Shown: positions 22,410 to 54,531 of the stretch, piece by piece | Position numbering within the stretch: position 1 is the first letter of the stretch | Layout of the letters: each line of letters opens with the position of its first letter | Translations under genes and position numbers: made by a program | The notes under the pieces: model-generated | Databases searched by the model: none | Seen by the model: only the letters and a program-made list of their open reading frames with translations | Told to the model about the DNA's origin: nothing | From: a virus | DNA: 54,531 nt | Reading direction: 5' to 3' (one strand) | Virus record (IMG/VR): IMGVR_UViG_3300037963_004589 | Coordinates: 17,935 to 72,465 of that record

Positions 22410-22417
22410 TATAAATA
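22410..22417 (-). promoter_or_regulatory. Conserved intergenic octamer (copy 5 of 5)
   Basis: TATAAATA on the plus strand (TTATAAATATAA) lies in the 46-bp gap 22386-22431, the only sizeable gap after the 32-kb glycan run. On the transcribed strand it reads TTTATATTTATAAT and lies 24 nt before the endolysin start. A promoter here would start the lysis/virion transcript. Confidence 0.45.
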
Positions 22418-22431
22418 TAAAGAAATTAAAT

Positions 22432-22821
22432 TTACCATATTTTTGTTCGTAATCTTCTTCGACCTTCAATACCCTTTTTCCAACAAAATCCATGATTTCT
22501 CCATAATTTATCAAAATATACTGGTATGGTATCTACTCCTAAGTAAAAATACGCATGAAATCTATGCCAACCATCCATAATTTGATGTTTTCGATTTAAA
22601 TATATTGGTAGTTCTATATTCTGTTTTATCAATTTTTGAAAATATAAAAATAATGCCTTATTAGTATTATCACCAACACACTCACAAACTGGTCCCTCTT
22701 CATCATTTCTTGGTTTATCCCAATAATCAAATGTATCTGTAATGTTTATATCAACTTTATCAATATCTATATAATGTTTAGTAGGTGGAAATAAAACTTC
22801 AAAGAACTCTCTCTCACTCAT
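22432..22821 (-). CDS. ParB/Srx-fold-like small protein
   Basis: A 129-aa protein with L-P-I-Y-L-N-R-K-H-Q-I-M-D-G-W-H-R-F-H-A followed by G-V-D-T-I-P-V-Y-F, the pattern of ParB-like nuclease-fold proteins (ligand-binding G-x-H-R box and trailing I-P-V strand). Members bind nucleotides and range from DNA-partition proteins to small-molecule kinases. Short, without an HTH, so chromosome partition is unlikely. It is last in the glycan run and overlaps a 33-aa gene by ATGA. Function is open. Confidence 0.65.
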   Translation of the reverse strand: MSEREFFEVLFPPTKHYIDIDKVDINITDTFDYWDKPRNDEEGPVCECVGDNTNKALFLYFQKLIKQNIELPIYLNRKHQIMDGWHRFHAYFYLGVDTIPVYFDKLWRNHGFCWKKGIEGRRRLRTKIW

Positions 22822-22919
22822 TTATAAATAAATGGGTCTCTTTTTTTTATTTCCTTTAACTTCTTACGAAATTTATATTCTGTAACAAGTTTATGCCATA
22901 TTTTTTTAAAAAACTTCAT
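22818..22919 (-). CDS. 33-aa basic micro-protein
   Basis: A short gene seen by eye. AAGGAG lies 5 nt before ATG 22919, and the TGA overlaps the next ATG (ATGA at 22821-22818). The product begins M-K-F-F-K-K-I-W-H-K-L-V-T and is strongly basic and amphipathic, so it might bind a membrane. It overlaps the end of the upstream SGNH gene by 14 nt. Good RBS and perfect coupling suggest it is real, but it could be a leader for the ParB-like gene. Confidence 0.55.
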   Translation of the reverse strand: MKFFKKIWHKLVTEYKFRKKLKEIKKRDPFIYK

Positions 22920-23658
22920 AATTACTCCTTATATATTTTTCTAAAACCTCTGCCCATGCAATATGTGATTTATCTGTTGGGTGAGATGATTTAAAGTACT
23001 CATCATTTTTACCCCAATTAGTGTTAAATTTATCTTCAATATACTCTCTAAAGTGTGGTTTAAAATCTCTATTATAAATATTATCTAAATCAATATCTTG
23101 ATATAAATTGTAACTTTCAAAATCTGAAGATAACTCTGCATCAAAACAATTAAAAATTAAATATTGAATTTTTTTCATTTTTAAAAAATTTTGTAAATTA
23201 ATAATATTGTACACATGTCGTTTTACTAACATTTCAAGGTTTTCAATATTAGGAATGTATTGATTTAATAAATGGTTTTCAACATTGGTGAGTTTCTTTT
23301 TAACCTGCTTTATTGCACTATATCTAAATAATGAAGTTAATCCAATAACAACAAAAATATCTTTTTTTCCCAATGAATGTAGATACTCTATTGAATACAT
23401 AGTCGTATCCACTATCCTATCTATACTTGCACCTAATCTACCACAATTCCAAGTCTCTACACCAAGTTTTTTACCTAATACTTTTGGCCAGATTTGACTA
23501 TTATAAAACTTATGAGTAGTTTTATGGTCACACATATTTGTATCACTACCAAAATTAGGTATTATATTATATTCTGAAGTTGGTGTTACCTCCCAATCAA
23601 CTGTTTGAGAGGGTGAATCACCACCAGTCCAACTATCTCCGTTAGTCAAGAGAATCAT
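22906..23658 (-). CDS. SGNH hydrolase-like protein, paralogue 1
   Basis: A 250-aa protein with the first SGNH block N-G-D-S-W-T-G-G (nucleophile Ser9), a block II-like G-R-L-G-A-S-I-D, V-I-G-L-T-S-L-F-R in place of the usual G-x-N-D block, and a last block S-S-H-P-T-D-K-S-H with the catalytic His. SGNH enzymes are esterases or acetyl-transfer enzymes. Within a glycan locus, adding or removing O-acyl groups is the likely role. It overlaps the methyltransferase upstream by ATGA. Six relatives lie in this window. Confidence 0.72.
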   Translation of the reverse strand: MILLTNGDSWTGGDSPSQTVDWEVTPTSEYNIIPNFGSDTNMCDHKTTHKFYNSQIWPKVLGKKLGVETWNCGRLGASIDRIVDTTMYSIEYLHSLGKKDIFVVIGLTSLFRYSAIKQVKKKLTNVENHLLNQYIPNIENLEMLVKRHVYNIINLQNFLKMKKIQYLIFNCFDAELSSDFESYNLYQDIDLDNIYNRDFKPHFREYIEDKFNTNWGKNDEYFKSSHPTDKSHIAWAEVLEKYIRSNYEVF

Positions 23659-24329
23659 TTTAATTCCTTTGTTATTGAATAGCTATATGCAACAAGTGGT
23701 TTACCATTTTTATCCACCCTACTATTATCGACTCCTTGTGATTCTAAATAAATCGGAGTATCCTCCGAAAAAAAATCATTTAATGCCCGTTCTACCCCAA
23801 AAGTTTCATCACTTTTTAAATCATATAAAGAATAATCATCTCCAAATAATAAACCACCACTTTTTATTTTAGGCCACCATGCTTTTAAATCTCCCAATAC
23901 ACCATCATAACTATGATTTGCATCTAAGTAAATCCAGTCCAATGAATTATCATCAAATAAATTTGCTGCTTCAATTGTATCACTTTTTATCAACTCAATA
24001 TTTTTATCTTTTGACCATTCTAATATTTTATTATATTCTTGTAAAGTGTTTTCTTTCGTACCAAAATAATAATTACCATCTTCAGGTTCATCCCAATGGT
24101 CAATTAAATATAATTTAGTTGGGTTAGAATAATCCCATAACCATTTAGCATTCTTACCACCTGCTACTCCAATCTCTGCACCAACACAATTATGTGGAAC
24201 ATTATTCTTGACAAAGTTTATTCGTGGTGGGTTGTGTCTTCGTTTACCTAAAACTTTAGGTGGATTTGCTAACAACTTAGGTTCGGTATAGAGTTCATAT
24301 ATTAACTCTCTGTAATTAATTAATCTCAT
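23655..24329 (-). CDS. Class I SAM methyltransferase, tandem copy A
   Basis: A 224-aa protein of the Methyltransf_24 type: SAM-binding V-G-A-E-I-G-V-A-G-G-K-N-A, then L-Y-L-I-D-H-W-D, then L-D-W-I-Y-L-D-A-N-H-S-Y-D-G-V and G-G-L-L-F-G-D-D-Y. It is clearly a tandem duplicate of the next upstream gene, with well over half of the positions identical by eye in the C-terminal half. Such enzymes often O-methylate sugars in polysaccharide loci. ATGA overlaps on both sides indicate coupled translation. Confidence 0.8.
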   Translation of the reverse strand: MRLINYRELIYELYTEPKLLANPPKVLGKRRHNPPRINFVKNNVPHNCVGAEIGVAGGKNAKWLWDYSNPTKLYLIDHWDEPEDGNYYFGTKENTLQEYNKILEWSKDKNIELIKSDTIEAANLFDDNSLDWIYLDANHSYDGVLGDLKAWWPKIKSGGLLFGDDYSLYDLKSDETFGVERALNDFFSEDTPIYLESQGVDNSRVDKNGKPLVAYSYSITKELK

Positions 24330-24949
24330 TTTACTATCTTATAGGTATATGATACTATTGGTTTACCATTAATATCTTTTTTTGTATTTGATATACCTTG
24401 TACCTCTAAGTGAATTGAAGTATCATCTGAAAAAAACTTCTTTAAAGCTTTTTCCACACCAAATTTTGACCGAGTCAAATCATACAAAGAATAATCATCA
24501 CCCATTAATAATCCACCATCTTTAAGTTTAGGCCAGTATGCATTCAAATCCCTAAGAACACCCTCATAACTATGGTCGGCATCTAAGTAAATCCAATCTA
24601 TTGATTCATCATCAAATCTTTTAGATGCATTGACAGTATCATCTTTTATAACTTCAATATTTTTATCTTGTGAAAATTTTAAAACTTGATTATACCAATA
24701 TAGAGTTTCTTCTCCAAAATATGGTTTTTGTGCTAAATCCCAATGGTCTATTAAGTATAATTTTTTTGGTTTAGCATTTTGCCACAAATATTGTGCGTGT
24801 TTACCACCTGCAACACCAACCTCTATACCAATCGTATCAACTGGTATATTATTTTTTATAAAATCTATTCTTGAGGGTGAAGTTGGTTTATACTTGGTAA
24901 GTTCACCATAAATACTATAAATTAACTCTGTATAGTTAATCAGTCTCAT
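24326..24949 (-). CDS. Class I SAM methyltransferase, tandem copy B
   Basis: A 207-aa paralogue of the preceding entry, with I-G-I-E-V-G-V-A-G-G-K-H-A, L-Y-L-I-D-H-W-D and I-D-W-I-Y-L-D-A-D-H-S-Y-E-G-V. The frame is open upstream to 24991, but ATG 24949 has AGAGG 8 nt upstream and gives the same start (M-R-L-I-N-Y) as copy A, so it is chosen. Overlap with the upstream gene is then 14 nt. Substrate probably a sugar; two copies may methylate different positions or sugars. Confidence 0.8.
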   Translation of the reverse strand: MRLINYTELIYSIYGELTKYKPTSPSRIDFIKNNIPVDTIGIEVGVAGGKHAQYLWQNAKPKKLYLIDHWDLAQKPYFGEETLYWYNQVLKFSQDKNIEVIKDDTVNASKRFDDESIDWIYLDADHSYEGVLRDLNAYWPKLKDGGLLMGDDYSLYDLTRSKFGVEKALKKFFSDDTSIHLEVQGISNTKKDINGKPIVSYTYKIVK

Positions 24950-25823
24950 GTACCGAACCTCTTTTAAGTATATTATACAAACCAGTACCACCTTTCATAT
25001 GATGTAGAAATGGTTTATCATTCAGTATATGTAAATTACCAGGTGTTTTTATATTATATTTTTCAAAAAATTCCATTTTTAAATGTGTTTTATTTTCATA
25101 AAAACCAGGCAGATGTAGATATTTCAACCCTTTCTTTTCACACATGATAGTTGCCAAATGATTATTATCACCTCGTGTCCAATCTACCCAAATCCTATGT
25201 TTTTGATAAAAATCTCCCCTACACAAAAACCAATAACAATCTGCAAAACCATCAATTCCCTTTGGTGATGCAGGATATTTTGGTGGTTTTTTATCTACTG
25301 TTATATATTCATAATTTTCTCTTTCTAATAAATTGATTGCATCATGTATTACCTCTTTTTCACTATATCTATCAAATAAATACTCTGTATCATTATGTTG
25401 TAATACAAGGTAATCTCCAGTGGCTTCTACTATACCATGATTATATGCCATTGCACAAACCATTGCATGATTTAATTCTTTTATTAGTGGTTTACCACCT
25501 TTTCTTTCTATATGCATACCTTTGTAATCTAAGAGTCCTAACTCATGAATCCAATATGGGTCTTGATAATCTTCACTAGCAAAATCAAATGTTTGAAAAG
25601 ATGGTATTACTCGTATTAAAGGATTATCTTGTTTAGGAAAATTACCTTCATTATCCATCACTAAAATTTCATGTGGTTGTAACTGTAATAATTGGTCTAT
25701 TAAAAACAATGTATGTTTTAACAAAGCATTATCTGCTTTTATATTTCTATTTGGATAACCTTTTGAGTCTATTTTTGTTAAGGAAGTTGTATTAGCCCAA
25801 ACTATGATATAACTTACTTTCAT
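24936..25823 (-). CDS. GT-A-type glycosyltransferase-like protein
   Basis: A 295-aa protein with GT2-like features: N-terminal V-S-Y-I-I-V-W-A-N, a nucleotide-binding-like E-I-L-V-M-D-N-E-G, and G-D-Y-L-V-L-Q-H-N-D-T-E-Y, where H-N-D occupies the usual metal-binding DxD position. Then G-D-N-N-H-L-A-T with later H-L-P-G-F-Y and H-H-M-K-G-G. It would transfer a sugar from an NDP-sugar. GGAG precedes ATG 25823, and it overlaps its upstream neighbour by ATGA. Confidence 0.65.
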   Translation of the reverse strand: MKVSYIIVWANTTSLTKIDSKGYPNRNIKADNALLKHTLFLIDQLLQLQPHEILVMDNEGNFPKQDNPLIRVIPSFQTFDFASEDYQDPYWIHELGLLDYKGMHIERKGGKPLIKELNHAMVCAMAYNHGIVEATGDYLVLQHNDTEYLFDRYSEKEVIHDAINLLERENYEYITVDKKPPKYPASPKGIDGFADCYWFLCRGDFYQKHRIWVDWTRGDNNHLATIMCEKKGLKYLHLPGFYENKTHLKMEFFEKYNIKTPGNLHILNDKPFLHHMKGGTGLYNILKRGSVHETD

Positions 25824-26557
25824 TTATTTCTCCATAAAATAGTTTTTAACTTTGAGGAATGCATCCCTTTAATTTTTAATTGAGTTTTCATACAGGTTAT
25901 TGCTGGATAGTTATGTGATGTAGATAAGAAACTTTGAGAAGTTTGTAAATATGTATGTAAAAACCCATTACAAAATAAATTTATGGAATGTTCATTTCCA
26001 ATTTGATAATAATCTTCAGATATCCATATTCCAGTTTTTTTTCTAGCAATACAATTAGATGTACCGTATGGTATATGAATTGTGGAATATTCTGATTTTA
26101 TCCTATCTAATTGTGTCTTACCCTTTTTACTTTCTGTAAAATAATTTACCACTTGTTCTACTGATTTAAAAATTATATCTGGTCTTGATAAAAGTATTAC
26201 ATCATATTTAATATTATTTTCTTTTTGATATAATCTTCTAAACCTACCACCATAATAATTTTGATATGAAATAGGCATCATTCTCTGTGCATTTTTATTT
26301 CTACGAAGTTTATCCTTTTTATCTTGTAATAAATGATTATTTAAAGGTATTAAATTAGCAGTTTCAAAATAACTTAAATCTAAATTTTTAGTATAATCAT
26401 CATCCCAACTACAAATATGCATATCAACATCAACACCGTTTTGTTTTAACTTTGATTTTAAAACTTTCCAATGTAATTCTACATTTACATCAGTATTTTT
26501 ACCTACCTCACCCTTCCAACCTCGAATTTGACCTGCTAATTGTATTGCAAACTTCAT
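25820..26557 (-). CDS. SGQ-type glycosyltransferase-like, paralogue 1
   Basis: A 245-aa protein opening F-A-I-Q-L-A-G-Q-I-R-G-W, a motif shared with three other proteins here (31511, 32326, 45127). It continues with D-M-H-I-C-S-W-D and V-I-L-L-S-R-P-D-I-I-F, where R-P-D-I may act like a GT DxD site. I recall this family as putative glycosyltransferases of phages and capsule loci; the fold is not certain. ATGA overlaps on both sides. Confidence 0.55.
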   Translation of the reverse strand: MKFAIQLAGQIRGWKGEVGKNTDVNVELHWKVLKSKLKQNGVDVDMHICSWDDDYTKNLDLSYFETANLIPLNNHLLQDKKDKLRRNKNAQRMMPISYQNYYGGRFRRLYQKENNIKYDVILLSRPDIIFKSVEQVVNYFTESKKGKTQLDRIKSEYSTIHIPYGTSNCIARKKTGIWISEDYYQIGNEHSINLFCNGFLHTYLQTSQSFLSTSHNYPAITCMKTQLKIKGMHSSKLKTILWRNK

Positions 26558-27045
26558 ACGATTTTATCTATGTGTATATTATGAGTCATTAAATAACATA
26601 AAAATTTAGATTTTGTATCTTTATTATTTGGAGTTGGAAAAAAACAATCAAGCCAATATGTTTTGGTAAAATTTGATATAATGTCAAATGTCAAGGAATC
26701 TGATTGCCAATTAAAAATACTTGGTTTTTTTTGAGATAAAGTATTAGTAACCCACTCTGTAGGTATATTGTGTTTTTTTTCTATTTCACAATCATAACTA
26801 TAAATTGTATATCTACTAAATGATTTGATAGTATCGAATTCAAACTGTCTTGTTGCAAAAATTACTGAATCATACAATTTATTTTGTTTTACTTCCCTAT
26901 AAGATTTTTCCATACCAACTTCATTTAAAATATTTATAAAATCGTCTTTTTCATCAAAAATAATAGTATCATAATTTGAATTATTAAATGATGAAAATTT
27001 TTTATTTTCAAGATAATTTGTTGGTTTTATTAATAATCTATTCAC
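26554..27045 (-). CDS. Hypothetical protein
   Basis: Not recognised. A 163-aa protein starting at GTG 27045, which overlaps the upstream NeuB stop codon (TAGTG). No good RBS is seen, so coupling is likely. It is aromatic-rich with no clear motif (Y-D-T-I-I-F-D-E-K-D-D, W-L-D-C-F-F-P-T-P-N). It lies between NeuB and a glycosyltransferase-like gene, so a role in the same glycan pathway is plausible only by location. Confidence 0.55.
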   Translation of the reverse strand: MNRLLIKPTNYLENKKFSSFNNSNYDTIIFDEKDDFINILNEVGMEKSYREVKQNKLYDSVIFATRQFEFDTIKSFSRYTIYSYDCEIEKKHNIPTEWVTNTLSQKKPSIFNWQSDSLTFDIISNFTKTYWLDCFFPTPNNKDTKSKFLCYLMTHNIHIDKIV

Positions 27046-27872
27046 TAAAATCTTGTACTGTAATAACTGTGGTTAAAAACTTGTTTCTCATTAAATTTAT
27101 TTATTTCCTTATACTGATTTATTTTACTTAATTTACTAAAATTTATAAGTTCTACAATCATCTCTGGCGTAACGGAAACCTTACCATCTCTTGTTTCATC
27201 TTTATCCAATATGGTGAAGTGTCTTTCTAATACATCAATTCCTTGAAATATTGCTAACTTACTACTTAATAAATTATCTTCATATGGGTTCGAATGGTCA
27301 CTTAATCCCACATTATCTAAATTAAATTCCTTTTTGTAAAATGGTATATTTTGTAAATTTAATTTATCCAAAGAAGTTGGATATACACAAGTACAATTCA
27401 ACATTGTAAATTTTATATTATTGAGTTGTAAAAATTTTACTATTTTTTTAATATCAAAAAAAGTTAAACTTGAGGTAGAAAAATAAAGATGTTTAAAATT
27501 AAATTCCTTAATTTGTTTATAAATATCCTTCATCTTATAACCAGAAATTTTAAGATATTCATATCCTAAATTATTGAATCTCTTTGGGTGTCTATGGTTA
27601 AAAATCGTTGTCATTGGTTTGACATCCCATTTTTTACAAATTTCTATAAATTGTTGTTCATCTTCAAAACTTAATTCTAATGATTTTAATCTTTGATATT
27701 CTGCTTCGTATGGTCTAAATTCTTCATGGTGTTTCCAATAAATCAAATCTCTTGCAAGTATAGTTTGAATTTTACAAAAATGTGCACCTGCTTTTGATGC
27801 CCGTTCAACCATCTCCTCTATTATTTTCATATCACCATTGTGATTTTGACAAAGTTCAGCTATAAATTTCAT
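27045..27872 (-). CDS. neuB: NeuB-family nonulosonic acid synthase
   Basis: Condenses phosphoenolpyruvate with a hexosamine-derived sugar to form a sialic-acid-like nonulosonate. The TIM-barrel signatures are present: I-A-E-L-C-Q-N-H-N-G-D at 4-14, C-K-I-Q-T at 33-37, a late G-L-S-D-H-S, and L-E-R-H-F-T. The 275-aa product ends right after the barrel, so the C-terminal SAF/antifreeze-like domain of classical NeuB (about 350 aa) is missing. ATG 27872 is chosen over 27884 because it overlaps the upstream stop as ATGA and follows GGGGAA. With the CMP-transferase at 37462 it suggests a nonulosonate pathway. Confidence 0.85.
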   Translation of the reverse strand: MKFIAELCQNHNGDMKIIEEMVERASKAGAHFCKIQTILARDLIYWKHHEEFRPYEAEYQRLKSLELSFEDEQQFIEICKKWDVKPMTTIFNHRHPKRFNNLGYEYLKISGYKMKDIYKQIKEFNFKHLYFSTSSLTFFDIKKIVKFLQLNNIKFTMLNCTCVYPTSLDKLNLQNIPFYKKEFNLDNVGLSDHSNPYEDNLLSSKLAIFQGIDVLERHFTILDKDETRDGKVSVTPEMIVELINFSKLSKINQYKEINKFNEKQVFNHSYYSTRF

Positions 27873-28456
27873 AATGTTCCCCATCCATTTTTACCAATAA
27901 ATTTAAATTTATCACCATACTTAGAAATATAATACTCCGTTGTAGATTTTCTTCCTTGAATAAAAACATTTATTTTATTATTTGGAAACCTCTCATGTAA
28001 ATCATCAACATTTATTGTAGCATAAATATTATACCTACCAACATCGGGTCCATCAATGATAACAAAATCTACATCTTCCATACCTTTATAATCATGATAG
28101 TATCTAGCTAATTTATCTTTGTTACCCCAATCACCTGCTTTTTCTATAGGACATAATTGAACTGAATCTGTAAGTTCAATGTTATTTTTGATAACATCAT
28201 AGAAATGTTTATTATCCTCAAATGAAAAAAACTTTGTTTTCAAGTCTAATTCATCTATTGTTTTTTGTATTACTCTTGTACTATAACCACTACCATATTC
28301 TATGATACACTTTGGTTTATAGTTAGTTATATGGTCTGTTATTAGTTGATAATCTTGTTTTGTTTGACCTGTAGGAATACCATTTCCATCCAAAGAATAT
28401 TTTTTTTCTAATTCCAGTCTTGATGTAGATTCATATTGATGTCTTAAATCACTCAT
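27869..28456 (-). CDS. SAM-methyltransferase-like protein
   Basis: A 195-aa protein with a Rossmann-type motif C-I-I-E-Y-G-S-G-Y-S-T-R, then F-F-S-F-E-D-N and D-F-V-I-I-D-G-P-D-V-G-R-Y. This layout resembles class I methyltransferases without strong similarity to the tandem pair at 23655-24949. GGAG precedes ATG 28456. It lies between a dehydrogenase and NeuB. Substrate unknown. Confidence 0.62.
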   Translation of the reverse strand: MSDLRHQYESTSRLELEKKYSLDGNGIPTGQTKQDYQLITDHITNYKPKCIIEYGSGYSTRVIQKTIDELDLKTKFFSFEDNKHFYDVIKNNIELTDSVQLCPIEKAGDWGNKDKLARYYHDYKGMEDVDFVIIDGPDVGRYNIYATINVDDLHERFPNNKINVFIQGRKSTTEYYISKYGDKFKFIGKNGWGTL

Positions 28457-29283
28457 ATTTTCTCCATAACTCTTCTATAGGCTTTTTCTTGTGCATCAAT
28501 CGTTACACCTGCAATATGTGGTGTAACAATTACATTATTTAATCCTTTGAATTGTGATTCTTTTTGATTATATTCTGTCTGTAGAACATCCGTAGCATAA
28601 CCCTTTATTTTACCACTTAAAAGTAAATCTTTTATGTGTTGTTCATTTACAACTTCACCTCGTGAGGTGTTCACTAAATAAATATCATTTTTAAAGTTAT
28701 TAATAAATTTTTTATCAATCAATTTTGCAGTAGTTTGATTTAAATCAATATGTAAAGATAAAACATCAACATGATTAAATAAATCCTCATAAGAACCCTC
28801 ATATTTATCAACACAAATCACATCACTAAAAATATTTTTACATAATGTTTTCACCATAGTACCCAACCTACCATGACCAACAATACCCAAAGTTTTATCG
28901 TGTAGTTCAATAGTGGGTTTAATTTTTCTAACAATTGATAAAATTAAATACAAAGTGTGTTCTGCCGTTGACCATATTTGAGTTAATATAATATCATTTT
29001 TAATAGAAATAATTGGTACTGATTCTACATCAATATGATTTAAACCTGTCGATGGTGATAATATAAATTTAATCTTTGAAGTTTTAAGTAAGTTTTCATC
29101 AATTATAAAAGTTTGATGATTTGGTGCACAAAATAAAATATCATATTTATCAATATTATTTTTAACCGATTCATAAGTAGGATTTTCAAGTACATCAAAT
29201 TCAAAATGACTTGTTATATAATCATAAAATTTAGGTAAATGTTTTATAGGTGTAATAAAAAGTATCTTATACACCTGGCACAC
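28453..29283 (-). CDS. D-2-hydroxyacid dehydrogenase family
   Basis: A 276-aa NAD-dependent dehydrogenase of the SerA type: nucleotide-binding G-I-V-G-H-G-R-L-G, then V-N-T-S-R-G-E-V-V-N, A-T-D-V-L and catalytic V-T-P-H-I-A-G near the C-terminus. It is shorter than the usual 310-330 aa. No ATG lies near the N-terminus; GTG 29283 (or GTG 29274) must start it, overlapping the upstream gene by 17 nt. It may oxidise a sugar or hydroxyacid precursor for the glycan pathway. Exact substrate unknown. Confidence 0.8.
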   Translation of the reverse strand: MCQVYKILFITPIKHLPKFYDYITSHFEFDVLENPTYESVKNNIDKYDILFCAPNHQTFIIDENLLKTSKIKFILSPSTGLNHIDVESVPIISIKNDIILTQIWSTAEHTLYLILSIVRKIKPTIELHDKTLGIVGHGRLGTMVKTLCKNIFSDVICVDKYEGSYEDLFNHVDVLSLHIDLNQTTAKLIDKKFINNFKNDIYLVNTSRGEVVNEQHIKDLLLSGKIKGYATDVLQTEYNQKESQFKGLNNVIVTPHIAGVTIDAQEKAYRRVMEKI

Positions 29284-30499
29284 TCACATCACATTTTAAA
29301 AAAGAATCATTAATTACCCATGTATCACCATTTCCTTCTCTACAATTAATAACTGAAAGTAGTTTATCTTCAGTTGATGCATATTTTACATTCTTTTTTG
29401 TAAAAGCTAAAAACTCAAAAATATCACGATTAGTTTGATGTAATTTATTTTTATCTATCCATATTGCAAAACCCTTATAATTATTTTCTTTAGTAAAATT
29501 AGTTGGTTTAGTATCACAATATTTTACTTTAACTTTAAATTTACTTAAATTATGAAATTGAAATTTATTTTTAGTAGGTTTATTACGAGTTATTCTCATA
29601 TATAATTTTGCTTTTTTAATTAAATCATCTCTTATATCTTGAAAATACTTCTTGACATCTTCGCTAGAATTAGTGTAAATTGTTAATGGAGCTTCCATTA
29701 CCGTATCAGAAATATGGCTACCATTTTCATTTACTTGTTGCATATAGGTATGAGTGTGTAATACATTTTGAGTTTTATATTTTGTAGTATCACGACTAAT
29801 ATCCCACAACTTCCATAATTTTAATATACTACATTCTGTTAAATTATGATATTTAGTGGATTTAACCAAACCTTTTTCTTTAGCTACTTCAGGTGGAAGA
29901 TGAATAATAAAACTGTATCTTAAATTAGAAAAATCAACTCCTTCAAATGCAGGTTTCCAATATTGATACACATCATTAATATCGGTAATTTCTTTTAATG
30001 GTTGTGTAAAAAGATTACTATGGTAATTTTTTTTATTGACATATACAAAACATTTGTTTAAATTTAATTGTAAAAAAGATGATGCATAAAATCGTGTATT
30101 ACCTGGATGTGAAATGATTCTAAATTTTCCAAATGAATCAGTTGGATTTTTTAAATCAATATTAATAGTATCATCATTAGGTTTTATACTATGGTGAGTT
30201 GGATTATTAAACCCATTTCTAATAAATTCTTGTATTATGTATCGTCTATTTCTATGCCAAAATGAAAAATCGGTAGTATCACCAAATAAACTTTTATCAT
30301 TTACCTCCATAACAGTAAAATTAAAAAACCCATATTCTCCAAATAAATACTCTAAACGAACTTGTAAATTATTACTATTTGGTTTTTTACCATTTTCATA
30401 ATTAAAAAACTGCCAGGGTAAATCATCACAAAAAAATAGTTTATGATTTTTAAAAAAGTACTCTACAAATTCTTTATTACCCTTTAAATCATGTAGCAT
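29267..30499 (-). CDS. Unknown protein with possible ParB-like core
   Basis: A 410-aa protein, not firmly recognised. Around residues 85-180 the pattern R-R-Y-I-I-Q-E-F-I-R-N-G-F-N-N-P, then F-R-I-I-S-H-P-G-N-T-R-F, then C-F-V-Y-V-N resembles the ParB/Srx-like layout of other proteins in this window (G-x-x-x-P, then G-x-x-R, then a strand). The rest is Lys/Asn-rich. AAGGAATT precedes ATG 30499. It is encoded between an aminotransferase and a dehydrogenase, suggesting a metabolic partner. Confidence 0.5.
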   Translation of the reverse strand: MLHDLKGNKEFVEYFFKNHKLFFCDDLPWQFFNYENGKKPNSNNLQVRLEYLFGEYGFFNFTVMEVNDKSLFGDTTDFSFWHRNRRYIIQEFIRNGFNNPTHHSIKPNDDTINIDLKNPTDSFGKFRIISHPGNTRFYASSFLQLNLNKCFVYVNKKNYHSNLFTQPLKEITDINDVYQYWKPAFEGVDFSNLRYSFIIHLPPEVAKEKGLVKSTKYHNLTECSILKLWKLWDISRDTTKYKTQNVLHTHTYMQQVNENGSHISDTVMEAPLTIYTNSSEDVKKYFQDIRDDLIKKAKLYMRITRNKPTKNKFQFHNLSKFKVKVKYCDTKPTNFTKENNYKGFAIWIDKNKLHQTNRDIFEFLAFTKKNVKYASTEDKLLSVINCREGNGDTWVINDSFLKCDVSVPGV

Positions 30500-33201: not shown

Positions 33202-33202
33202 T

Positions 33203-47136: not shown

Positions 47137-48397
47137 TATATATTCTCGTTTTTAAATTATCATTTATATTATAATTAGCAATCAAATCACTATTGTGTTG
47201 TAAAATTTCTACCATATCCCACAACATTTTAATCCACTCATCATTATTAAGTTTACTTAATTTTAACACAACATCCATAACCATTTGTAATCGCTTCCAT
47301 GCATCGGGCTCACTATCATAGCTCTCATCCCACCATTTATTAAAAGTTTTAAATCCAAGTTTTCTCATTCTCCTTAATGATTTATATGGCCCAAATTGTA
47401 TTATTGGATGGCCACTATAAATAGGATTAAATGTAGAACTATGTAAATGACAACAATTTTCAGTATGAGGAAAAGCACACATCACCACACTTACAAAAGT
47501 ATTTTTATAATGTATTGGTTGAAATGGTAAATCTGCATTAAACTTACCCTCACCATAACCTGGTTCCCCGCGATTTAATGTATCGGTTTTATCAATATCA
47601 AATGGCATTTTTGAAAGCAATCCTTTTATATTTTTAGTAGATGTATATTTTTTAAATGCAGGATTATATACTTCCTCTGTAAATTGTGGAAAACTAATTT
47701 TAAATTTTTTATATAGATTTTCGTGCTCGATGAACAACATAAACAAATCTCTCTCTTCTCTATTAGTTCTATTAACTTTTAAAAAGGGTTTTATTTTTTT
47801 TATATGTTTTTCTTTATAATCTAATTCTGTTTTAATATCAATTTTTCTTTTTAAACATTTATGTTTAATTAATCTCTTGACATCATGAACATTCCACATA
47901 AATGATATTATTTTTATTTTATCTGGTATTTTTAATTCTCGATGAATATCTTCTGCTTCTAAATCATTAGTTATGAATACAATTTTATTATGTGGTAGTT
48001 GTAGTTTATTAATACTTCTATAAAGTGGTACTAACAACTCATCACCATCAATTCTATGACCCTCTAATGTATTATCAAATATTAACCATCCACGACCAGC
48101 TTTAACTTCATCTAATATTTGTTTAGGAATTAAATCAATATGTTTTGCCCACAACTTTTGATTATGATGTACATGCACAAAATAACTAAATTCAGATTTA
48201 AAATCAAATTTTTTTCTCTCTACAAGTTTCATTTTAAATTCTTGTGGTAAACTTGAATGACTAAATAATGGCCTACACATTGGAAATCCACGATTATCTA
48301 CTTCATTTATTTCTGGCACATTTTTATAAATAAGTGAAATTTCTGGCGGTGGGTCATGTAGACTTACTTGATTAAAATTATCTATTAATGCTATCAT
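47129..48397 (-). CDS. Putative glycosyltransferase
   Basis: A 422-aa protein. Its C-terminal third has H-L-H-S-S-T-F-N-P-I-Y-S-G-H-P-I-I and S-L-R-R-M-R-K-L-G-F-K-T-F-N-K-W-W-D-E-S-Y, which resembles the donor-site region of fucosyltransferase or exostosin-like enzymes of phages. The frame is open to 48481, but ATG 48397 is chosen, giving a 20-nt overlap with the SGNH gene upstream. The RBS is weak. The family assignment is moderate. Confidence 0.55.
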   Translation of the reverse strand: MIALIDNFNQVSLHDPPPEISLIYKNVPEINEVDNRGFPMCRPLFSHSSLPQEFKMKLVERKKFDFKSEFSYFVHVHHNQKLWAKHIDLIPKQILDEVKAGRGWLIFDNTLEGHRIDGDELLVPLYRSINKLQLPHNKIVFITNDLEAEDIHRELKIPDKIKIISFMWNVHDVKRLIKHKCLKRKIDIKTELDYKEKHIKKIKPFLKVNRTNREERDLFMLFIEHENLYKKFKISFPQFTEEVYNPAFKKYTSTKNIKGLLSKMPFDIDKTDTLNRGEPGYGEGKFNADLPFQPIHYKNTFVSVVMCAFPHTENCCHLHSSTFNPIYSGHPIIQFGPYKSLRRMRKLGFKTFNKWWDESYDSEPDAWKRLQMVMDVVLKLSKLNNDEWIKMLWDMVEILQHNSDLIANYNINDNLKTRIYNE

Positions 48398-49148
48398 AAA
48401 TTCTTTCACTAATAAAATCACAACCCTTATCTGTAGGGTGTGAATCACTTGATTGCATTGATTTTTTAAACTTACGACCAAATGTAATTAAATTTGAGGT
48501 ATCTAATTTTTTTAACAATGGATACTTATCTATCCATAAATCATCATTTGGTGTAGTGGTATCTCGATTTAAATTATAAAATTCAATAAATTTATACTTA
48601 AAATTATTTTCTTTTAAAAATCCTTGCAAGCCTAATAATTTAGAATGTAGTGAATGACATTGATTCTCAACCAGATTATCATCATATAAAACTAATCTTT
48701 TATAGTACTCACTAAAGTGTCTACAAATCTCATTAAAGTTTTGTTTATCCTTTAATATTTCATCATATATAAGATTAATATCTTCTTTATATGGTGATGT
48801 TAATCGTCTGTTCACTTGAATTTTATCAGTATAATCCTTTTTTACTGAACCAGGTACATTATGTTTTAATCGTAAATCACCTGGAGTTATACTCACAACT
48901 CCCCTTTTAAAATTTATTGCATATCGTTGGGCCCAAGTTATACCAATTACAACATAAGTATCTTTTGGATTCATATCTACTAAATGACTCATACTAGTCA
49001 AATATATAGATTCCATAGATTGACCATTTTTTGCTTCCATGATTAACTCACGACCAAGTTTATTTGCTAACTTTACTGGCCAGGTTTGATTATGTTCAAG
49101 TTTATGTCCAGCTGTAAAACTGCATCCATTTACATATAATTTTTTCAT
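48378..49148 (-). CDS. SGNH hydrolase-like protein, paralogue 5
   Basis: A 256-aa protein: Y-V-N-G-C-S-F-T-A-G-H (GCS variant), A-K-N-G-Q-S-M-E-S block II-like, V-V-I-G-I-T-W-A-Q-R and S-D-S-H-P-T-D-K-G. The last motif is almost identical to those of paralogues 1 and 6. ATGA overlap with the HAD gene upstream. Likely acyl-ester chemistry on a glycan. Confidence 0.7.
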   Translation of the reverse strand: MKKLYVNGCSFTAGHKLEHNQTWPVKLANKLGRELIMEAKNGQSMESIYLTSMSHLVDMNPKDTYVVIGITWAQRYAINFKRGVVSITPGDLRLKHNVPGSVKKDYTDKIQVNRRLTSPYKEDINLIYDEILKDKQNFNEICRHFSEYYKRLVLYDDNLVENQCHSLHSKLLGLQGFLKENNFKYKFIEFYNLNRDTTTPNDDLWIDKYPLLKKLDTSNLITFGRKFKKSMQSSDSHPTDKGCDFISERIYDSINR

Positions 49149-49765
49149 TTTATCTCACTAATAAAGTTTTTAATTTTTTCATAAGTAACATCTTGTGAAT
49201 CTTTTATTTCTAAAACATAACCACCAGTTTGTAATGCACCCTCTTTACCTAAATCAGAATCTTCTAATATTATTGTTTCTTTAGTATTTACACCTGCTTT
49301 GATAATACACCTTAAGTATATTTCTGATGCGGGTTTTGGATTCACTACATCTTGATTAGAATATACAAAATCTAAATATTCTAAAAACCCTCTACGAATT
49401 AATTGAAGTTTTGCACTTTTTCGAATTGAATTAGTTGCACAACACAATATGTAACCATCATCACTTAATTTTTTTAATACCTCTACTAACCTATCATCTT
49501 TATCTAAATCATTTATCATTTGTAAAGTTATATCTTGTTTATCTTCCCAAATCTTATTATGTAAATCATAAGGTAATCCTTTTTCTTTTGATAATAAATT
49601 TAATTTTGTGATTGTGGTATTACCATCATAAGTAGAAATGTGTTCATCTCGATGTATTATATATTTTTCATTTATATTAGAAAGTGCTTTATTCAATGCT
49701 TGATAATGTATTTCTTTTGCATCAACCAACACCCCATCTAAATCAAATATAATTAATTTAATCAT
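49145..49765 (-). CDS. HAD phosphatase, beta-phosphoglucomutase-like
   Basis: A 206-aa HAD hydrolase with a helical cap: motif I I-I-F-D-L-D-G-V-L-V-D, motif II C-C-A-T-N-S, motif III N-P-K-P-A-S-E-I-Y and motif IV L-E-D-S-D-L-G. It resembles sugar-phosphate phosphatases or beta-phosphoglucomutases. ATG 49765 is chosen over TTG 49768. It overlaps the upstream gene by 8 nt. It could recycle or isomerise a sugar phosphate for the locus. Confidence 0.82.
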   Translation of the reverse strand: MIKLIIFDLDGVLVDAKEIHYQALNKALSNINEKYIIHRDEHISTYDGNTTITKLNLLSKEKGLPYDLHNKIWEDKQDITLQMINDLDKDDRLVEVLKKLSDDGYILCCATNSIRKSAKLQLIRRGFLEYLDFVYSNQDVVNPKPASEIYLRCIIKAGVNTKETIILEDSDLGKEGALQTGGYVLEIKDSQDVTYEKIKNFISEIK

Positions 49766-50567
49766 CAAAATTCCAATTTAAAAGTGTTTGTTTGGTAAAC
49801 TCATCAAAATATTCTAAAAAATTATCAGTTACATAAGGAATTTTTCTATTTGTATCTTTTAATGCTCTTGTGCGAACTTCCTTATCAACATTTTGAAAAT
49901 ACTCATGTAGATTACCTGAGTCATGTTCATAATCTTCATACCATATCTTTTTTAAATTATATTTATTTTCAATACAATGAAGTGTATTTATCTCTTCTTG
50001 GAACGCTTTCAATAAATAATTTAAATAATAATATTCACTTAAATGACCATGTGTTTTTTTAGTGAATATATCATTTTCCCATCCGAGATGAATATTATTA
50101 TATGGGATTGGATTTTTTAATAAATGTTTATGAAATTTCATCATTGCTTTCTTTTTATCTTCTTTATTTTCAAATTTTTTATCATAAAGTCCATGTTGTA
50201 TTAATTGTTCCCAAACAGGTAAGGATAATAAACACTTTAACTTATTTCGTCTTTCTAATACAACCAAGTTATATTTTTCATTTAACTCCTCAAAGTAATT
50301 TCTATTATACCAATTACAAAGAATCATAGAATTATTTAATAAAATAGTTTTATATGTGTGTTGAAGATTATGTTTTAATAATTTTTCTGATTGTGGGATA
50401 AAAGATTTACCAGATATAATATCAAAGTCTAATTCTTTTAAATTTACATACTCTTCTTTTAAATTCAATAAAATTTCTGTTAATGCGAGTAATAATTGTG
50501 TACCACCTGACCTATAATGTGAAAGGATTATAGTACCTTGTTTTGTTTTATCATATAAATTAATCAC
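49758..50567 (-). CDS. Sulfotransferase-like protein
   Basis: A 269-aa protein whose N-terminus I-I-L-S-H-Y-R-S-G-G-T-Q-L resembles the PAPS-binding loop of sulfotransferases, with a later V-V-L-E-R-R-N-K-L-K-C-L-L-S in the place of the 3'-phosphate-binding motif. It starts at GTG 50567 with AGGAG 8 nt upstream. Sulfation of a sugar hydroxyl would suit the context. The family call is moderate. Confidence 0.55.
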   Translation of the reverse strand: MINLYDKTKQGTIILSHYRSGGTQLLLALTEILLNLKEEYVNLKELDFDIISGKSFIPQSEKLLKHNLQHTYKTILLNNSMILCNWYNRNYFEELNEKYNLVVLERRNKLKCLLSLPVWEQLIQHGLYDKKFENKEDKKKAMMKFHKHLLKNPIPYNNIHLGWENDIFTKKTHGHLSEYYYLNYLLKAFQEEINTLHCIENKYNLKKIWYEDYEHDSGNLHEYFQNVDKEVRTRALKDTNRKIPYVTDNFLEYFDEFTKQTLLNWNFDD

Positions 50568-51399
50568 TAAACTCTCTCCTTACTATAGGTAATAATTTAT
50601 TTACCCATATTTCTTGTGATTTTTCGGTTGGATGTGAATCTCTAAAATATTCATTTTTATCTAAACGAAGTATGTTATTATTTTTCATTTCATTTAAAAT
50701 AGTATTTCTAAAAGATTCACTCATAAAAACTTTTTTTCTGATATTGCTAATATATTCTGAATAATTATAATGAGATTTTGTATCATAACCCAACTCTATT
50801 AATACATCATCAATATCAACAGAATTAAAAATTAATCCCATTTCATCATCTACCGTTTCGTAAAAAGCATCAAAAAATAAATGTCTAACATTATTATTTT
50901 CAAAAAAATTATGTAACATTATTATCTGTTGTGTATATCTTTCTAAATATTCTTCTGCGTTCCAAAAAACTTTTCCATAAGTTTTATAAAATGATTTTAG
51001 TTCTCCACTTTCATCGAAATCAAAATCTTGTTCATATTGTGCAGGATATAAAGTATCCCATGCTTTTCTTTTAGAACTTTTGTAAAAAAAATCTTTTCTT
51101 TCAGGTGAGGTAAAACCAATAATTACAAATAAATCTTCTGGTTTTTTTTCTTGTAGTAAAGAAGTTACTCTTCTCATTACTCGTCTTACAATCCCATCAT
51201 TAGAACTACCCGCATGTGCATTATTTTCTATAGTGATATCATCTAAATACTTACCAAGTTTATGTGGCCAAACTTTTGGTAATCGATAACTTTCGTTTTC
51301 TAAATGATTTATAAACATACCTTCTTGGTTTTCTAATTCTGGATCAATCATATGTCCAGCTGTCCAACTATCTCCATCACAAATTAATATTTTACTCAC
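50560..51399 (-). CDS. SGNH hydrolase-like protein, paralogue 6
   Basis: A 279-aa protein: I-L-I-C-D-G-D-S-W-T-A-G-H, N-A-H-A-G-S-S-N-D-G, F-V-I-I-G-F-T-S-P-E-R, and R-D-S-H-P-T-E-K-S. Among the six paralogues it is close to paralogue 1 in its first motif. It starts at GTG 51399, 5 nt after AGGTGG, rather than at GTG 51408. It overlaps the phosphodiesterase-like gene by 8 nt. Confidence 0.72.
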   Translation of the reverse strand: MSKILICDGDSWTAGHMIDPELENQEGMFINHLENESYRLPKVWPHKLGKYLDDITIENNAHAGSSNDGIVRRVMRRVTSLLQEKKPEDLFVIIGFTSPERKDFFYKSSKRKAWDTLYPAQYEQDFDFDESGELKSFYKTYGKVFWNAEEYLERYTQQIIMLHNFFENNNVRHLFFDAFYETVDDEMGLIFNSVDIDDVLIELGYDTKSHYNYSEYISNIRKKVFMSESFRNTILNEMKNNNILRLDKNEYFRDSHPTEKSQEIWVNKLLPIVRREFSD

Positions 51400-51820
51400 T
51401 ATAACCACCTATGTAATCTGAACATATTCCTGCAACATCAGAAATTAAATAACCCTTTGGTGGTATAACGGAAATACTCTTGTTAGTCATTTGTTCTCGG
51501 TAATGTGACCATAAATAACCCTTAGTGGTTAATGCAACTTCATCCTTATCATGTGAAAAACAATGTATTTTTTCATCATCAACCATTCTATAAAATGCAT
51601 CTATATTTTTTGCATGACACCATAAATTTTTATTATGTAAAAACCACCTTGATACTTCATATTGTGGTTTATCATGTCCTAAATAAAATGTCCTGTCTAC
51701 ACTCCAAACATCTATCTCAACATCATATCCTAACTTCAATGCATTCTCTATATAGTCAGGTTTGTTTTCTAACTCCCTTTGTGGTCCATTAATATTTCCT
51801 CTATGTGATATTAATATCAT
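51392..51820 (-). CDS. Glycerophosphodiesterase-like protein
   Basis: A 142-aa protein with the GDPD-type opening I-L-I-S-H-R-G-N, then D-V-E-I-D-V-W-S, Y-L-G-H-D and L-W-C-H-A-K-N, which carry the usual His, Glu and Asp residues of the TIM-barrel phosphodiesterases. It is much shorter than bacterial GDPDs (about 240 aa) and ends early, so it may be a minimal phage version. A role might be release of glycerol or a phosphodiester from glycan or lipid. It overlaps the LamG-like gene by ATGA. Confidence 0.7.
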   Translation of the reverse strand: MILISHRGNINGPQRELENKPDYIENALKLGYDVEIDVWSVDRTFYLGHDKPQYEVSRWFLHNKNLWCHAKNIDAFYRMVDDEKIHCFSHDKDEVALTTKGYLWSHYREQMTNKSISVIPPKGYLISDVAGICSDYIGGYSE

Positions 51821-52551
51821 TTAAACACATCAACATTGTATTGTAAAAAATTACAATGTTCTGATAAATCCCAAACTTTATATCGATTCTTATTCATCAT
51901 ATTAAAATAAAAAATTATTTCTTCTAACTTACCCTTTTCTTGTAATGTTGTAAATGCTTCTTTATTTTTTTCCACAAAATTAAGTATTTCATTATCACTA
52001 TTTCTTGTTGATTCAAGTAATCCTGCATATTCTAATGAATAATCACCAAAAAAATAATGTGAATCATCCACTTGTTTAAAATAATTACCACACCCAAAGT
52101 TATATGGTGTATGTTCATAGTTATTTAAAACCCCATTGTAATTTGTTTTCTTTTGAAATGTTTGGGCTGTTCTATTATTTATAAGTTTTAACGAAAATTC
52201 TTTATCGTGTTCAAAATGTCTTACTATTGCTATCCACTCATCTGAAAGTTTTGTGTTTGGTAGATGATAATCAAGCTTGATTGCTATGTGACCAAATTCA
52301 TTAACACCATCTTTCTCATACCAAAACTCCCAATTTATATGCTCTTCTCCTTGTACATAACACAAACCAGTGTGCATTCCTGGTCTCATCATAACACTAC
52401 ATGGTTTTTCAGTATCGATAGCATCCTCTACTTTAAATTTACAAAAAAATGTAAAATTACCATTCATAGAAGTACTTGGTGGTCTTGTTGTTAAACTATA
52501 CCTTTGTTGTGGTAGTACATACCAAGGCTCATGTTGTTTTACTCTTAACAT
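51817..52551 (-). CDS. LamG-like (concanavalin-fold) protein
   Basis: A 244-aa beta-rich protein. Residues about 28-165 (N-G-N-F-T-F-F-C-K-F-K-V, W-I-A-I-V-R-H-F, F-S-L-K-L-I-N-N-R-T, F-G-C-G-N) follow the LamG jelly-roll pattern, and a helical tail follows. Such domains bind carbohydrate. It may be a glycan-recognition protein or a virion fibre part. It overlaps the radical-SAM gene by 7 nt. Confidence 0.5.
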   Translation of the reverse strand: MLRVKQHEPWYVLPQQRYSLTTRPPSTSMNGNFTFFCKFKVEDAIDTEKPCSVMMRPGMHTGLCYVQGEEHINWEFWYEKDGVNEFGHIAIKLDYHLPNTKLSDEWIAIVRHFEHDKEFSLKLINNRTAQTFQKKTNYNGVLNNYEHTPYNFGCGNYFKQVDDSHYFFGDYSLEYAGLLESTRNSDNEILNFVEKNKEAFTTLQEKGKLEEIIFYFNMMNKNRYKVWDLSEHCNFLQYNVDVFK

Positions 52552-53957
52552 AACTTCTCACAATCACGATAGAACGATTCTAATTCAGGAAAAACTTTAC
52601 AAAAATCTGTATTTCTTCGTCTATCATGTTCACTAAAGAAACGAAAAAAGTTTCTACGCTGTTCTGTCATATCTTTTTCATCTCTTGATAAATGCCAATC
52701 GTAGATTCTTTTTAACTTTTGTACTTCTATATCTGAGTATCCGATTAATCTGGTTTCAAAATTTGGTGTTGCCATAAACTCCGTTAATTGAGTCTGTTTA
52801 TAAATATTTTGTGCCCATTTATCAGGTAGAATTTGAACTGTCTGATGAGCGGGGAATCTTAAATAACTTGAATCTAAAAATACTGCAGAATTCCAATACC
52901 TATCATCCGAACCATATACATCTTTTAATTTATAAATTTCATACAATAATTTATCATAATTAGGAACGGATAATGCATTATAAGTAGACATCATTGTTAA
53001 ATTTACTCGTGAGCATTTTTCTAATATTTTATTAACATTATCCCAAAACCTATTAAATTCTAAACCATTTCTAATATATTCTGCTTGTTCACCCCATGTA
53101 TCAACCGAAGTAAATATAATAAACTCATCAACTCGTTGTTCATCTTCTATTCTTTGTATTTTTTCTATAAATCTATTAATTAAACTATCCTCTGGTCCTA
53201 AATTACTATTGATTGCTAATTGTAAATTTTTATTTGGATTAGGATGGTCAATTATATAATCTAAAACTTTCCATGTATCTTTAGATAATAGTGGTTCACC
53301 ACCTGTAATTCTAAATGTGTGCAAATCCTTATATAAATCAGGCCACCATTTCCAAAATGCCTCAACATATGGGTTGTGTTCACGGACGGGAATAGGAACT
53401 TTATCCTCTGCAATTAATCCTGCAGGGTCATTGAATCCATCAGATGTTGGATACCCACCATATTTATTTGTTTCTTGCATCCAAGTAGTAGAATATGCAG
53501 GCCCACAATAACTACATTTAAAATTACATGCATTATTAAATGCTACTTCTACATATCTTGGATTATAATCATCTCTAAAATTTGAATTAGCAATTTCATC
53601 ATAATGTGGTGCAGACCAATATTCTGCAGATTTAAAAACTCTATCTGAAAATCTTTTTGAATTATCCTCTACATTCCAACAATAATCACATTCTTTTGGT
53701 CTTTGACCAGTCAACATCTCTCTTCTTCTTATTTTTTTATAAGAAGTATTGTGTAATGCAGCTGGATTTCTTTTTATTTCATTTACATTTATTTTATGTG
53801 TTTTTGGATGGTGACAACTATGGTTGTGACCTGTTTGTAATTGTAAAGTTACTTGTGTCCATTTTGCTAAACAAAACCCACTACCTACTTTATCTAATTT
53901 ATCTTTTGTTTTTTGAAAAACTGGATTTTCATCCACATGGTCATTATATCCTGCCAT
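52545..53957 (-). CDS. Twitch-type radical SAM protein
   Basis: A 470-aa radical-SAM protein with core motif C144-N-F-K-C148-S-Y-C151 and, upstream, C-H-H-P (Cys48) and E-C-D-Y-C-W (Cys90/93), which could bind another cluster. The F-R-I-T-G-G-E-P-L motif follows near 225-233. It resembles the twitch-domain radical-SAM proteins frequent in marine phages and bacteria. It shares one base with the upstream gene. Chemistry and substrate unknown. Confidence 0.82.
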   Translation of the reverse strand: MAGYNDHVDENPVFQKTKDKLDKVGSGFCLAKWTQVTLQLQTGHNHSCHHPKTHKINVNEIKRNPAALHNTSYKKIRRREMLTGQRPKECDYCWNVEDNSKRFSDRVFKSAEYWSAPHYDEIANSNFRDDYNPRYVEVAFNNACNFKCSYCGPAYSTTWMQETNKYGGYPTSDGFNDPAGLIAEDKVPIPVREHNPYVEAFWKWWPDLYKDLHTFRITGGEPLLSKDTWKVLDYIIDHPNPNKNLQLAINSNLGPEDSLINRFIEKIQRIEDEQRVDEFIIFTSVDTWGEQAEYIRNGLEFNRFWDNVNKILEKCSRVNLTMMSTYNALSVPNYDKLLYEIYKLKDVYGSDDRYWNSAVFLDSSYLRFPAHQTVQILPDKWAQNIYKQTQLTEFMATPNFETRLIGYSDIEVQKLKRIYDWHLSRDEKDMTEQRRNFFRFFSEHDRRRNTDFCKVFPELESFYRDCEKLC

Positions 53958-54531
53958 TAAAACCTCACATTTATCATTTGATGTCTTTTATAAATATCAT
54001 CTTGTATAGATTCTATCTCATATTTCATTTGATGTAAGCCAAATTCATCTTTATCAATATCAATCATACCTTTTTGCATATGCTTTCTATATATCAACTC
54101 GTTTCTGGCTGTTGCTTTTATATCACCTTGAAAAGAACCATCAACAATTCCTTCATCCTCATGTGGTAAACATTCCATAGTACCATATCTTCTATCTGGC
54201 ACAAGTGTATTCATAATCTCATTAATTTTTGATTTTGTTACCTTACCCCCATATAAAAATAATTTACCATGATTATTATTACCACTTAAATCTAAAATTT
54301 TATCACCCTTATATGATTTATCAAAATCATAATGTAAAACTAATTTGTTTCTTTGGTTGTATAATTTTAAATATGCTAATTCTCCCTTAAAAAAATTTTT
54401 TATTTTACCCCATGAGTTTGGTGCATTTCTCCCAATATAAAATGGTTTTGCTGCATATTTTTTTAATCTATTTTCAAAATTTAATTTACTTTTCTGTATA
54501 CCGAATTTTTCACCATACTCTACATCATTTA
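53957..54531 (-). CDS. LamG-like protein, 5' part cut by window end
   Basis: The open frame runs past the window edge, with 190 codons visible and no stop back to 54529. An in-frame ATG at 54214 would give an 85-aa protein but is probably internal, because the upstream part is clearly protein-like: V-L-H-Y-D-F-D-K-S-Y-K-G-D-K-I, then D-L-S-G-N-N-N-H-G-K-L, the N-terminal signature of LamG jelly rolls. A C-terminal section begins V-P-D-R-R-Y-G-T-M-E-C-L-P-H. Full start and length are unknown. It may be a carbohydrate-binding or glycosyltransferase-linked protein. Confidence 0.6.
   Translation of the reverse strand, partial: NDVEYGEKFGIQKSKLNFENRLKKYAAKPFYIGRNAPNSWGKIKNFFKGELAYLKLYNQRNKLVLHYDFDKSYKGDKILDLSGNNNHGKLFLYGGKVTKSKINEIMNTLVPDRRYGTMECLPHEDEGIVDGSFQGDIKATARNELIYRKHMQKGMIDIDKDEFGLHQMKYEIESIQDDIYKRHQMINVRF

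Follow-up and report, generated by a model that had tools for sequence, protein, structure and literature searches.

A densely packed sugar-enzyme operon is evident from the analysis of a 54,531-nucleotide stretch of viral DNA (the window, in whose coordinates positions are given unless marked otherwise), which spans contig positions 17935-72465 of the 94,452-base IMG/VR record IMGVR_UViG_3300037963_004589, itself a genome fragment. The record carries T4-type head genes recognized by homology (gp17 terminase, gp20 portal, gp21 protease and gp23 capsid); since the best cultured relatives of its portal protein are those of Microcystis phage Mel-JY01 (53%) and Flavobacterium phage immuto (51%), the source, an uncultured water phage, is on these sequences a far-T4 phage. 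Genes inside the window are labelled g; those outside it, in segment L003 (contig 72000-91000), are labelled u or x. The record also contains four 10-N scaffold gaps (L003:467-476 and L002:3208-3217, 10258-10267 and 17925-17934), two of which coincide exactly with the window edges.

The operon lies on the minus strand, where 42 listed open reading frames (ORFs) run from 54529 down to 22432; with the starts chosen here, 39 of the 41 junctions overlap, as against 15 of 27 among the head and tail genes at 67-22385 (Fisher p = 1.2e-4). The original prediction, made from the sequence of the window before this analysis, had described just such a densely overlapping one-strand operon. It had also given the overlaps as mostly ATGA and at most 23 nucleotides (nt) long; the 4-nt type does account for 17 of them, but the range is 1-41 nt, and the largest non-overlap is not one base, since besides a 1-nt gap at 33202 there is one of 84 nt (22822-22905) before the last ORF. 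Nor does the operon begin at the window edge, 54531, as had been supposed: glycan-type genes run on for 5.3 kb, to about contig position 77795 (about 79975 if the Hint and GT4-like genes described below are included), an extension of seven genes, counting a split one, with gaps of 47 and 6 nt. The predicted number of about 42 genes agrees with the ORF count, except that the ORF at 53957-54529 is the tail of that split gene, which encodes a GT7-LamG enzyme. From the first methyltransferase to g41 the operon spans about 37 kb, about 47 genes and 39% of the record. A sigma-70 promoter scan gave no more matches than in shuffled sequences, and no promoter is claimed. The sequence TATAAATA on the plus strand (TATTTATA on the coding strand) has 25 matches where 17 are expected, slightly above chance, and may be a late-promoter motif; it occurs in several of the few intergenic gaps (22410-22417, 22823-22830, 11416-11423, 4494-4501, 3010-3017 and 54-61).

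The upstream part of the operon holds a conserved core, which consists of a Methyltransf_24 protein (u7), a GT-A-like enzyme with an invariant DDDE (u4), a 62-amino-acid (aa) protein, two GT7-LamG enzymes and the twitch-domain radical-SAM protein g02; the LamG-like g03 also belongs to it. The split gene is interrupted by a 10-N gap (contig 72466-72475), and its GT7 part (u1, L003:467-1317) and LamG part (g01) are two halves of one ORF of 465-489 aa that is intact in 14 relatives. The GT7 protein u2 has both the N and C domains of the family, matches animal beta-1,4-galactosyltransferases (1e-26) and keeps the motifs DxD and WGWGxEDDD in ten relatives; by these signatures the core GT7-LamG proteins are beta-1,4-galactosyltransferase-type enzymes. 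The source phage encodes the GT7 N-terminal Pfam domain twice; 0 of 14 control prokaryotes have it. In g02 the motifs CxxxCxxC and CHHP/CxYCW are invariant across 16 sequences. A sulfotransferase (Pfam E = 1.3e-24) and an SGNH-like gene sit within this upstream part, neither being conserved in relatives.

At contig position 77795 the operon adjoins a gene for a Hint-domain protein, a GT4-like one and one for a fibre-like protein of 2126 aa. The Hint protein (L003:5812-6867), directly upstream of the core, ends in a Hint (autoprocessing) domain, CLLEGTPIEMADGS...FLVHN, and weakly matches a virion structural family; other phages encode relatives of it, which include a tail-fibre protein and one named 'large intein domain protein'. 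The GT4-like gene encodes the motif EPFGY..F.A.D.GK.PI, and a comparison of its profile with that of g09 showed no relationship.

Searching with the terminase and with g02 yielded 160 viral loci, and sixteen longer regions were inspected one gene at a time. The GT7-LamG core is present at 49 of the 58 g02 loci having room upstream and in 14 of the 16 longer regions. In these 14 its gene order is constant, and a variable cassette, formed in the source phage by g04-g41, lies between the core and the lysozyme/terminase genes wherever both ends were assembled. In close relatives the GT4-like gene and the Hint structural protein beside the fibre gene are kept together with the core, and fibre-like, Hint and GT4-like genes adjoin it in the rearranged loci L145 and L161 too. 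The cassettes fall into two types: type A, with NeuB and a CMP-sugar synthetase, is found in the source phage, G002, G041, G042, G015, G016, G017 and, partially and without NeuB, in G035, and type B, with NAD/dTDP-epimerases and thiamine pyrophosphate (TPP) enzymes, in G001, G003, G005, G006, G011, G012, G014 and G027; that of G004 is intermediate. The G011 cassette, for example, encodes three NAD-epimerases, an RmlC-type epimerase, E1/transketolase-like parts and a cytidylyltransferase-like protein, and from their gene content the two types represent different sugar chemistry. Cassette type does not track core similarity: G001 has a core GT7 identity of 71% but shares 5 cassette genes, whereas G016 has 38% but shares 24. 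Six relatives proved to have NeuB when searched with a profile; a NeuB pattern scan of viral contigs, with patterns derived from one sequence, found none. The most widely kept cassette family is that of g09, with relatives in 57 loci. The cultured relative Mel-JY01 has no such operon at the matching site.

It had been proposed beforehand that a block scattered among close phages, or absent from them, would speak against a coherent locus; what we find is one site with a co-conserved core, while the second part is swapped as a block. Between G002 and G041, which derive from separate metagenomes, identity is 99.93% across a stretch of at least 19.5 kb on the side of the cassette and lysozyme; within the homolog of the large structural-side gene (Table 1) it then falls abruptly to about 78%. 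A 40-mer at this switch recurs in two more contigs: L290, from a third metagenome, carries the G041 junction and backbone at 99.87%, and L287 carries the G002 backbone, so that a chimeric assembly is unlikely to lie behind the switch. Cassette orthologs have ratios of nonsynonymous to synonymous substitution (dN/dS) of about 0.11-0.20, like structural genes, which argues that the cassette genes are under purifying selection and led us to reject the view of the cassette as stuffer DNA.

All nine glycosyltransferase-like proteins of the original prediction were recovered (g09, g12, g13, g16, g20, g29, g30, g37 and g38), with support that ranges from predicted folds down to weak profile matches and, for g13, a motif only; also recovered were its NeuB, cytidylyltransferase, sugar nucleotidyltransferase, aminotransferase, dehydrogenases (a 2-hydroxyacid and a short-chain dehydrogenase), HAD proteins and methyltransferases. 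Its sulfotransferase-like g06 and phosphodiesterase-like g04 have no Pfam match in the window, the recognizable sulfotransferase being the one upstream of it. To these we add four radical-SAM proteins, six SGNH/DUF6071-like proteins and paralogy among genes of no assigned family; g21, g23 and g24 (35821-38978) share a conserved R/G-T/S-H-R motif that no Pfam family explains, the match of g24 to TehB being weak.

Equally informative is what the locus lacks. None of the operon's proteins shows a clear membrane segment (the threshold of 1.6 is reached by u7, and the sole higher listed value is an artefact of a too-early start for g09), and Bac_transf (PF02397) and Polysacc_synt (PF01943), searched with positive controls, are absent from 15 related records, in agreement with the earlier remark that no transporter, flippase or polymerase is seen. 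The likeness to a complete capsule or O-antigen cluster drawn at the same time finds no support: a NeuB-family synthase and a CMP-sugar synthetase are present at the Pfam level, both below the NCBIfam equivalog cut-offs, and the operon has no Pfam match to Epimerase_2 (NeuC-type) or the SAF domain. With no NeuC-type epimerase, a NeuB without SAF and no lipid-linked initiation, the precursors are probably supplied in part by the host.

Table 1. Genes of the operon and flanking genes within the window.
Gene	Position	Strand	Basis or remark
g01: C-terminal LamG part of GT7-LamG glycosyltransferase	53957..54529	-	matches one half of the 465-489-aa proteins of relatives
g02: core twitch-domain radical-SAM protein (NF033640)	52545..53957	-	347.8 bits; curated cut-off 170
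g03: core LamG-like protein	51817..52551	-	no Pfam match of its own; positional/BLAST counterpart in G011 matches Laminin_G_3, 9e-9
g04: phosphodiesterase-like (by eye)	51392..51820	-	no Pfam match; S-SM2 glycan-operon relative, 42%
g05: DUF6071/SGNH-like	50560..51408	-	2.6e-16
g06: sulfotransferase-like (by eye only)	49758..50567	-	no Pfam match
g07: HAD phosphatase	49145..49768	-	5.8e-25
g08: SGNH-like	48378..49148	-	paralog of g41
g09: GT-B-fold glycosyltransferase family	47129..48397	-	model pLDDT 84; top Foldseek matches are GT-B enzymes
g10: no assigned function	46711..47136	-	conserved in type A relatives
g11: SGNH-like	45921..46730	-	distant paralog of g05
g12: GT-A-fold glycosyltransferase (family g12/g29/g30/g37)	45127..45924	-	model pLDDT 86; Foldseek GT6/GT8-type matches; paralogs
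g13: probable GT-B enzyme	44216..45130	-	GYGHFHR motif by eye; no Pfam match; conserved in type A relatives
g14: radical SAM/SPASM protein	43267..44229	-	1.8e-18
g15: no assigned function	42642..43274	-	no relative among loci read
g16: exostosin/GT47-like	41797..42645	-	1e-4 (weak)
g17: GDSL/SGNH-like	40973..41800	-	1.6e-4 (weak)
g18: radical SAM/SPASM protein	40087..40986	-	SPASM 1.3e-12
g19: short-chain dehydrogenase (SDR)	39624..40109	-	3.4e-9
g20: GT8-like glycosyltransferase	38938..39627	-	0.002 (weak)
g21: family without assigned function	38130..38978	-	paralogs g23 and g24
g22: CMP-sugar synthetase (cytidylyltransferase), KdsB-like	37462..38133	-	4.3e-10
g23: paralog of g21	36684..37481	-	paralogy
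g24: paralog of g21	35821..36687	-	paralogy
g25: small HAD protein	35513..35824	-	S-SM2 glycan-operon relatives, 44-50%
g26: sugar nucleotidyltransferase	34804..35529	-	8.5e-9; PDB 4evw, 4.5e-15
g27: SGNH-like (by eye)	34131..34817	-	no Pfam match
g28: radical SAM/SPASM protein	33203..34138	-	57-89% identity across relatives
g29: GT-A-fold family	32326..33201	-	paralog of g12, g30
g30: GT-A-fold family	31511..32332	-	paralog of g12, g29
g31: HisC-like aminotransferase	30489..31514	-	5.7e-37
g32: no assigned function	29267..30499	-	conserved in type A relatives
g33: D-2-hydroxyacid dehydrogenase	28453..29274	-	5.6e-34
g34: methyltransferase-like (by eye)	27869..28456	-	no Pfam match; conserved in type A
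g35: NeuB-family synthase, 275 aa, without SAF domain	27045..27872	-	4e-34
g36: no assigned function	26554..27045	-	
g37: weak member of g12 family	25820..26557	-	24-aa match only
g38: GT2-like glycosyltransferase	24936..25823	-	0.014 (weak)
g39: methyltransferase (Methyltransf_24)	24326..24949	-	57% identical to g40
g40: methyltransferase (Methyltransf_24)	23655..24329	-	2.2e-17
g41: DUF6071/SGNH-like	22906..23658	-	8.3e-8; closes the overlapping run
g42: conserved small protein, boundary gene	22432..22821	-	past the 84-nt gap; also beside other cassettes
endolysin	21903..22385	-	phrog_315, 4.9e-52; conserved gene downstream of the cassette
d_1132: large structural-side protein	16293..19691	-	homolog holds the G002/G041 recombination switch

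Cellular relatives of g02 are nearly all from Bdellovibrionota, often as tandem arrays on long chromosomal contigs (L207-L285); no GT7 core was found near them except on the phage-like contigs L207 and L212, and these matches therefore give no link to a host. In more distant large viral contigs (L153, L157 and L162-L164), g02-type radical-SAM genes stand in tandem arrays of 4-6, and the GT7 core is absent.

Cyanophages and pelagimyophages were already known to carry large glycan clusters. The lipopolysaccharide (LPS) clusters of the T4-like cyanophages S-SM2, P-SSM2 and S-SSM7 are large, and their function was left open (Sullivan et al. 2010; PMC3037559). That of S-SM2 is, like the source operon, a long and tightly packed T4-like sugar operon in which the families of g04, g25, g26 and g12 lie close together, but the S-SM2 stretch examined is without a GT7-LamG or twitch radical-SAM core; moreover, the cyanophage clusters sit near hli03, phoH and tRNAs, whereas the source operon lies between fibre genes and lysozyme/terminase, in a window where no tRNA or Rfam RNA was found. 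In pelagimyophages a hypervariable fibre region of 45 kb holds glycosyltransferases and radical-SAM cassettes, is described as diverging gradually and has been connected with host O-chain modification (PMC7029224); compared by description, it is likewise a large variable region with fibre genes and both kinds of enzyme, but the G002/G041 cassette was exchanged whole, with a sharp breakpoint. G011 and G014 (276 and 289 kb) may belong to the moraphages, large aquatic phages with predicted Bacteroidota hosts and four core glycosyltransferase groups (PMC12619734); unlike what we see in the relatives of the source phage, the accessible part of that description has no operon or cassette exchange. 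In mycobacteriophages, glycans were observed on subunits of the capsid and of the tail tube (Freeman et al. 2023, cited in PMC12619734), a case of phage glycosyltransferases acting on virion proteins, which is the mechanism proposed below from genes alone; as presented there, it involves no sugar cassette of comparable size.

Bacterial O-antigen and capsule loci also combine sugar-nucleotide enzymes and several glycosyltransferases in one operon, and swap cassettes at a fixed site through recombination in flanking genes, but they have Wzx/Wzy or ABC export and lipid-linked initiation, none of which was found in the source operon or in the records of its relatives. At the level of the fold, the best Foldseek match of g09 is 3oy2 of Chlorella virus NY-2A, a virus-encoded protein from an algal system, and g12 matches 2p6w of the algal virus PBCV-1, whose PDB title states that it glycosylates the major capsid protein. 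New, as judged by sequence comparison, are the core of GT7-LamG and twitch radical-SAM proteins, the exchange of whole cassettes, and four proteins (g02, GT7-LamG, g09 and g28) for which tblastn, at its sensitivity, detected no homolog among 50,697 phage genomes.

Together, the conservation and adjacency of the core, the block exchange, the dN/dS values, the lack of membrane and export genes, the GT7 motifs and the g09 and g12 folds point to a phage-encoded glycan-assembly locus, cytoplasmic and lipid-independent, whose core is fixed, whose cassette is exchangeable and whose product would decorate a virion protein, a reading to which we give about an even chance. The core enzymes would place the inner sugars on a tail or fibre protein encoded by the neighbouring genes, most simply the fibre or Hint protein, while their LamG domains would hold the acceptor or the product; the cassette enzymes would convert precursors made by the host into activated, modified sugars and attach the outer, serotype-defining residues, so that a swap of cassettes would give the virion a different appearance to receptors, hosts or grazers. 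Several observations weigh against this reading. The virion acceptor is suggested by gene adjacency alone, and for that part the balance is roughly level; distant contigs have other genes beside the core, with the Hint protein missing or weakly matched; the fold matches of g09 and g12 have modest TM-scores (0.35-0.45); the related records are all fragments, and export genes may lie elsewhere in those genomes; and the soluble enzymes could also act on the lipooligosaccharide (LOS) core of the host.

This last point leads to the main rival, in which the operon re-decorates host LPS or LOS during infection and so blocks superinfection or re-adsorption of progeny. The glycosyltransferases of the bacterial LOS core are soluble, and enzymes of KdsB and NeuB type are commonplace in the pathways to LPS and capsule; the idea has been put forward for pelagimyophage glycosyltransferases in a similar region (PMC7029224). 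The absence of membrane-bound initiation, flippase and polymerase among the genes found, and the ties of the core to fibre and Hint genes, make it the less favoured account, and we judge it rather unlikely. A pathway to a modified peptide or secondary metabolite, built by the radical-SAM and SGNH proteins with glycosylation as a side step, would fit the resemblance of the radical SAM/SPASM proteins to NCBIfam peptide maturases, but it is improbable given that glycosyltransferases and sugar-nucleotide enzymes predominate, that no precursor peptide was recognized and that the g02 subfamily has no assigned chemistry. Sugars on modified DNA bases, as in T4, are made by T4-like phages and are listed as a role of phage glycosyltransferases (PMC12619734); a set of some 40 genes that includes NeuB, methyltransferases and SGNH proteins goes far beyond that need, and no recognized base-modifying enzyme is in the operon (the replication region of the record was not searched for them), so that this use of the locus seems highly improbable. 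As for a functionless captured cluster or a chimeric contig, stuffer DNA was raised for the cyanophage LPS clusters (PMC3037559) and the record does have 10-N gaps, but purifying selection, overlapping frames that stay intact across many relatives and a junction repeated in another metagenome have largely refuted it, and we give it almost no weight.

For 15 years phage glycan clusters have been known with the question of whether they are functional or stuffer DNA left open. Here the fixed core, the block-swapped cassettes, the purifying selection and the recurrent junction reveal a locus that is selected and exchanged, and they point to a virion target. We tentatively suggest, at somewhat less than even confidence, that this far-T4 group, widespread and uncultured, has true serotypes, in which an inner glycan made by conserved GT7-LamG enzymes of animal type carries outer sugars set by a cassette of up to about 30 kb that homologous recombination swaps between phages, O-antigen-like but on the virion. 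As carbohydrate enzymes, both GT7-LamG and the radical-SAM protein of family NF033640 would be new. The cassette swapping resembles that of bacterial O-antigen genes and may give these phages a changeable sugar coat; if virions are indeed coated, differences in phage serotype would have consequences in aquatic systems for evasion, for receptor binding and for the range of hosts.

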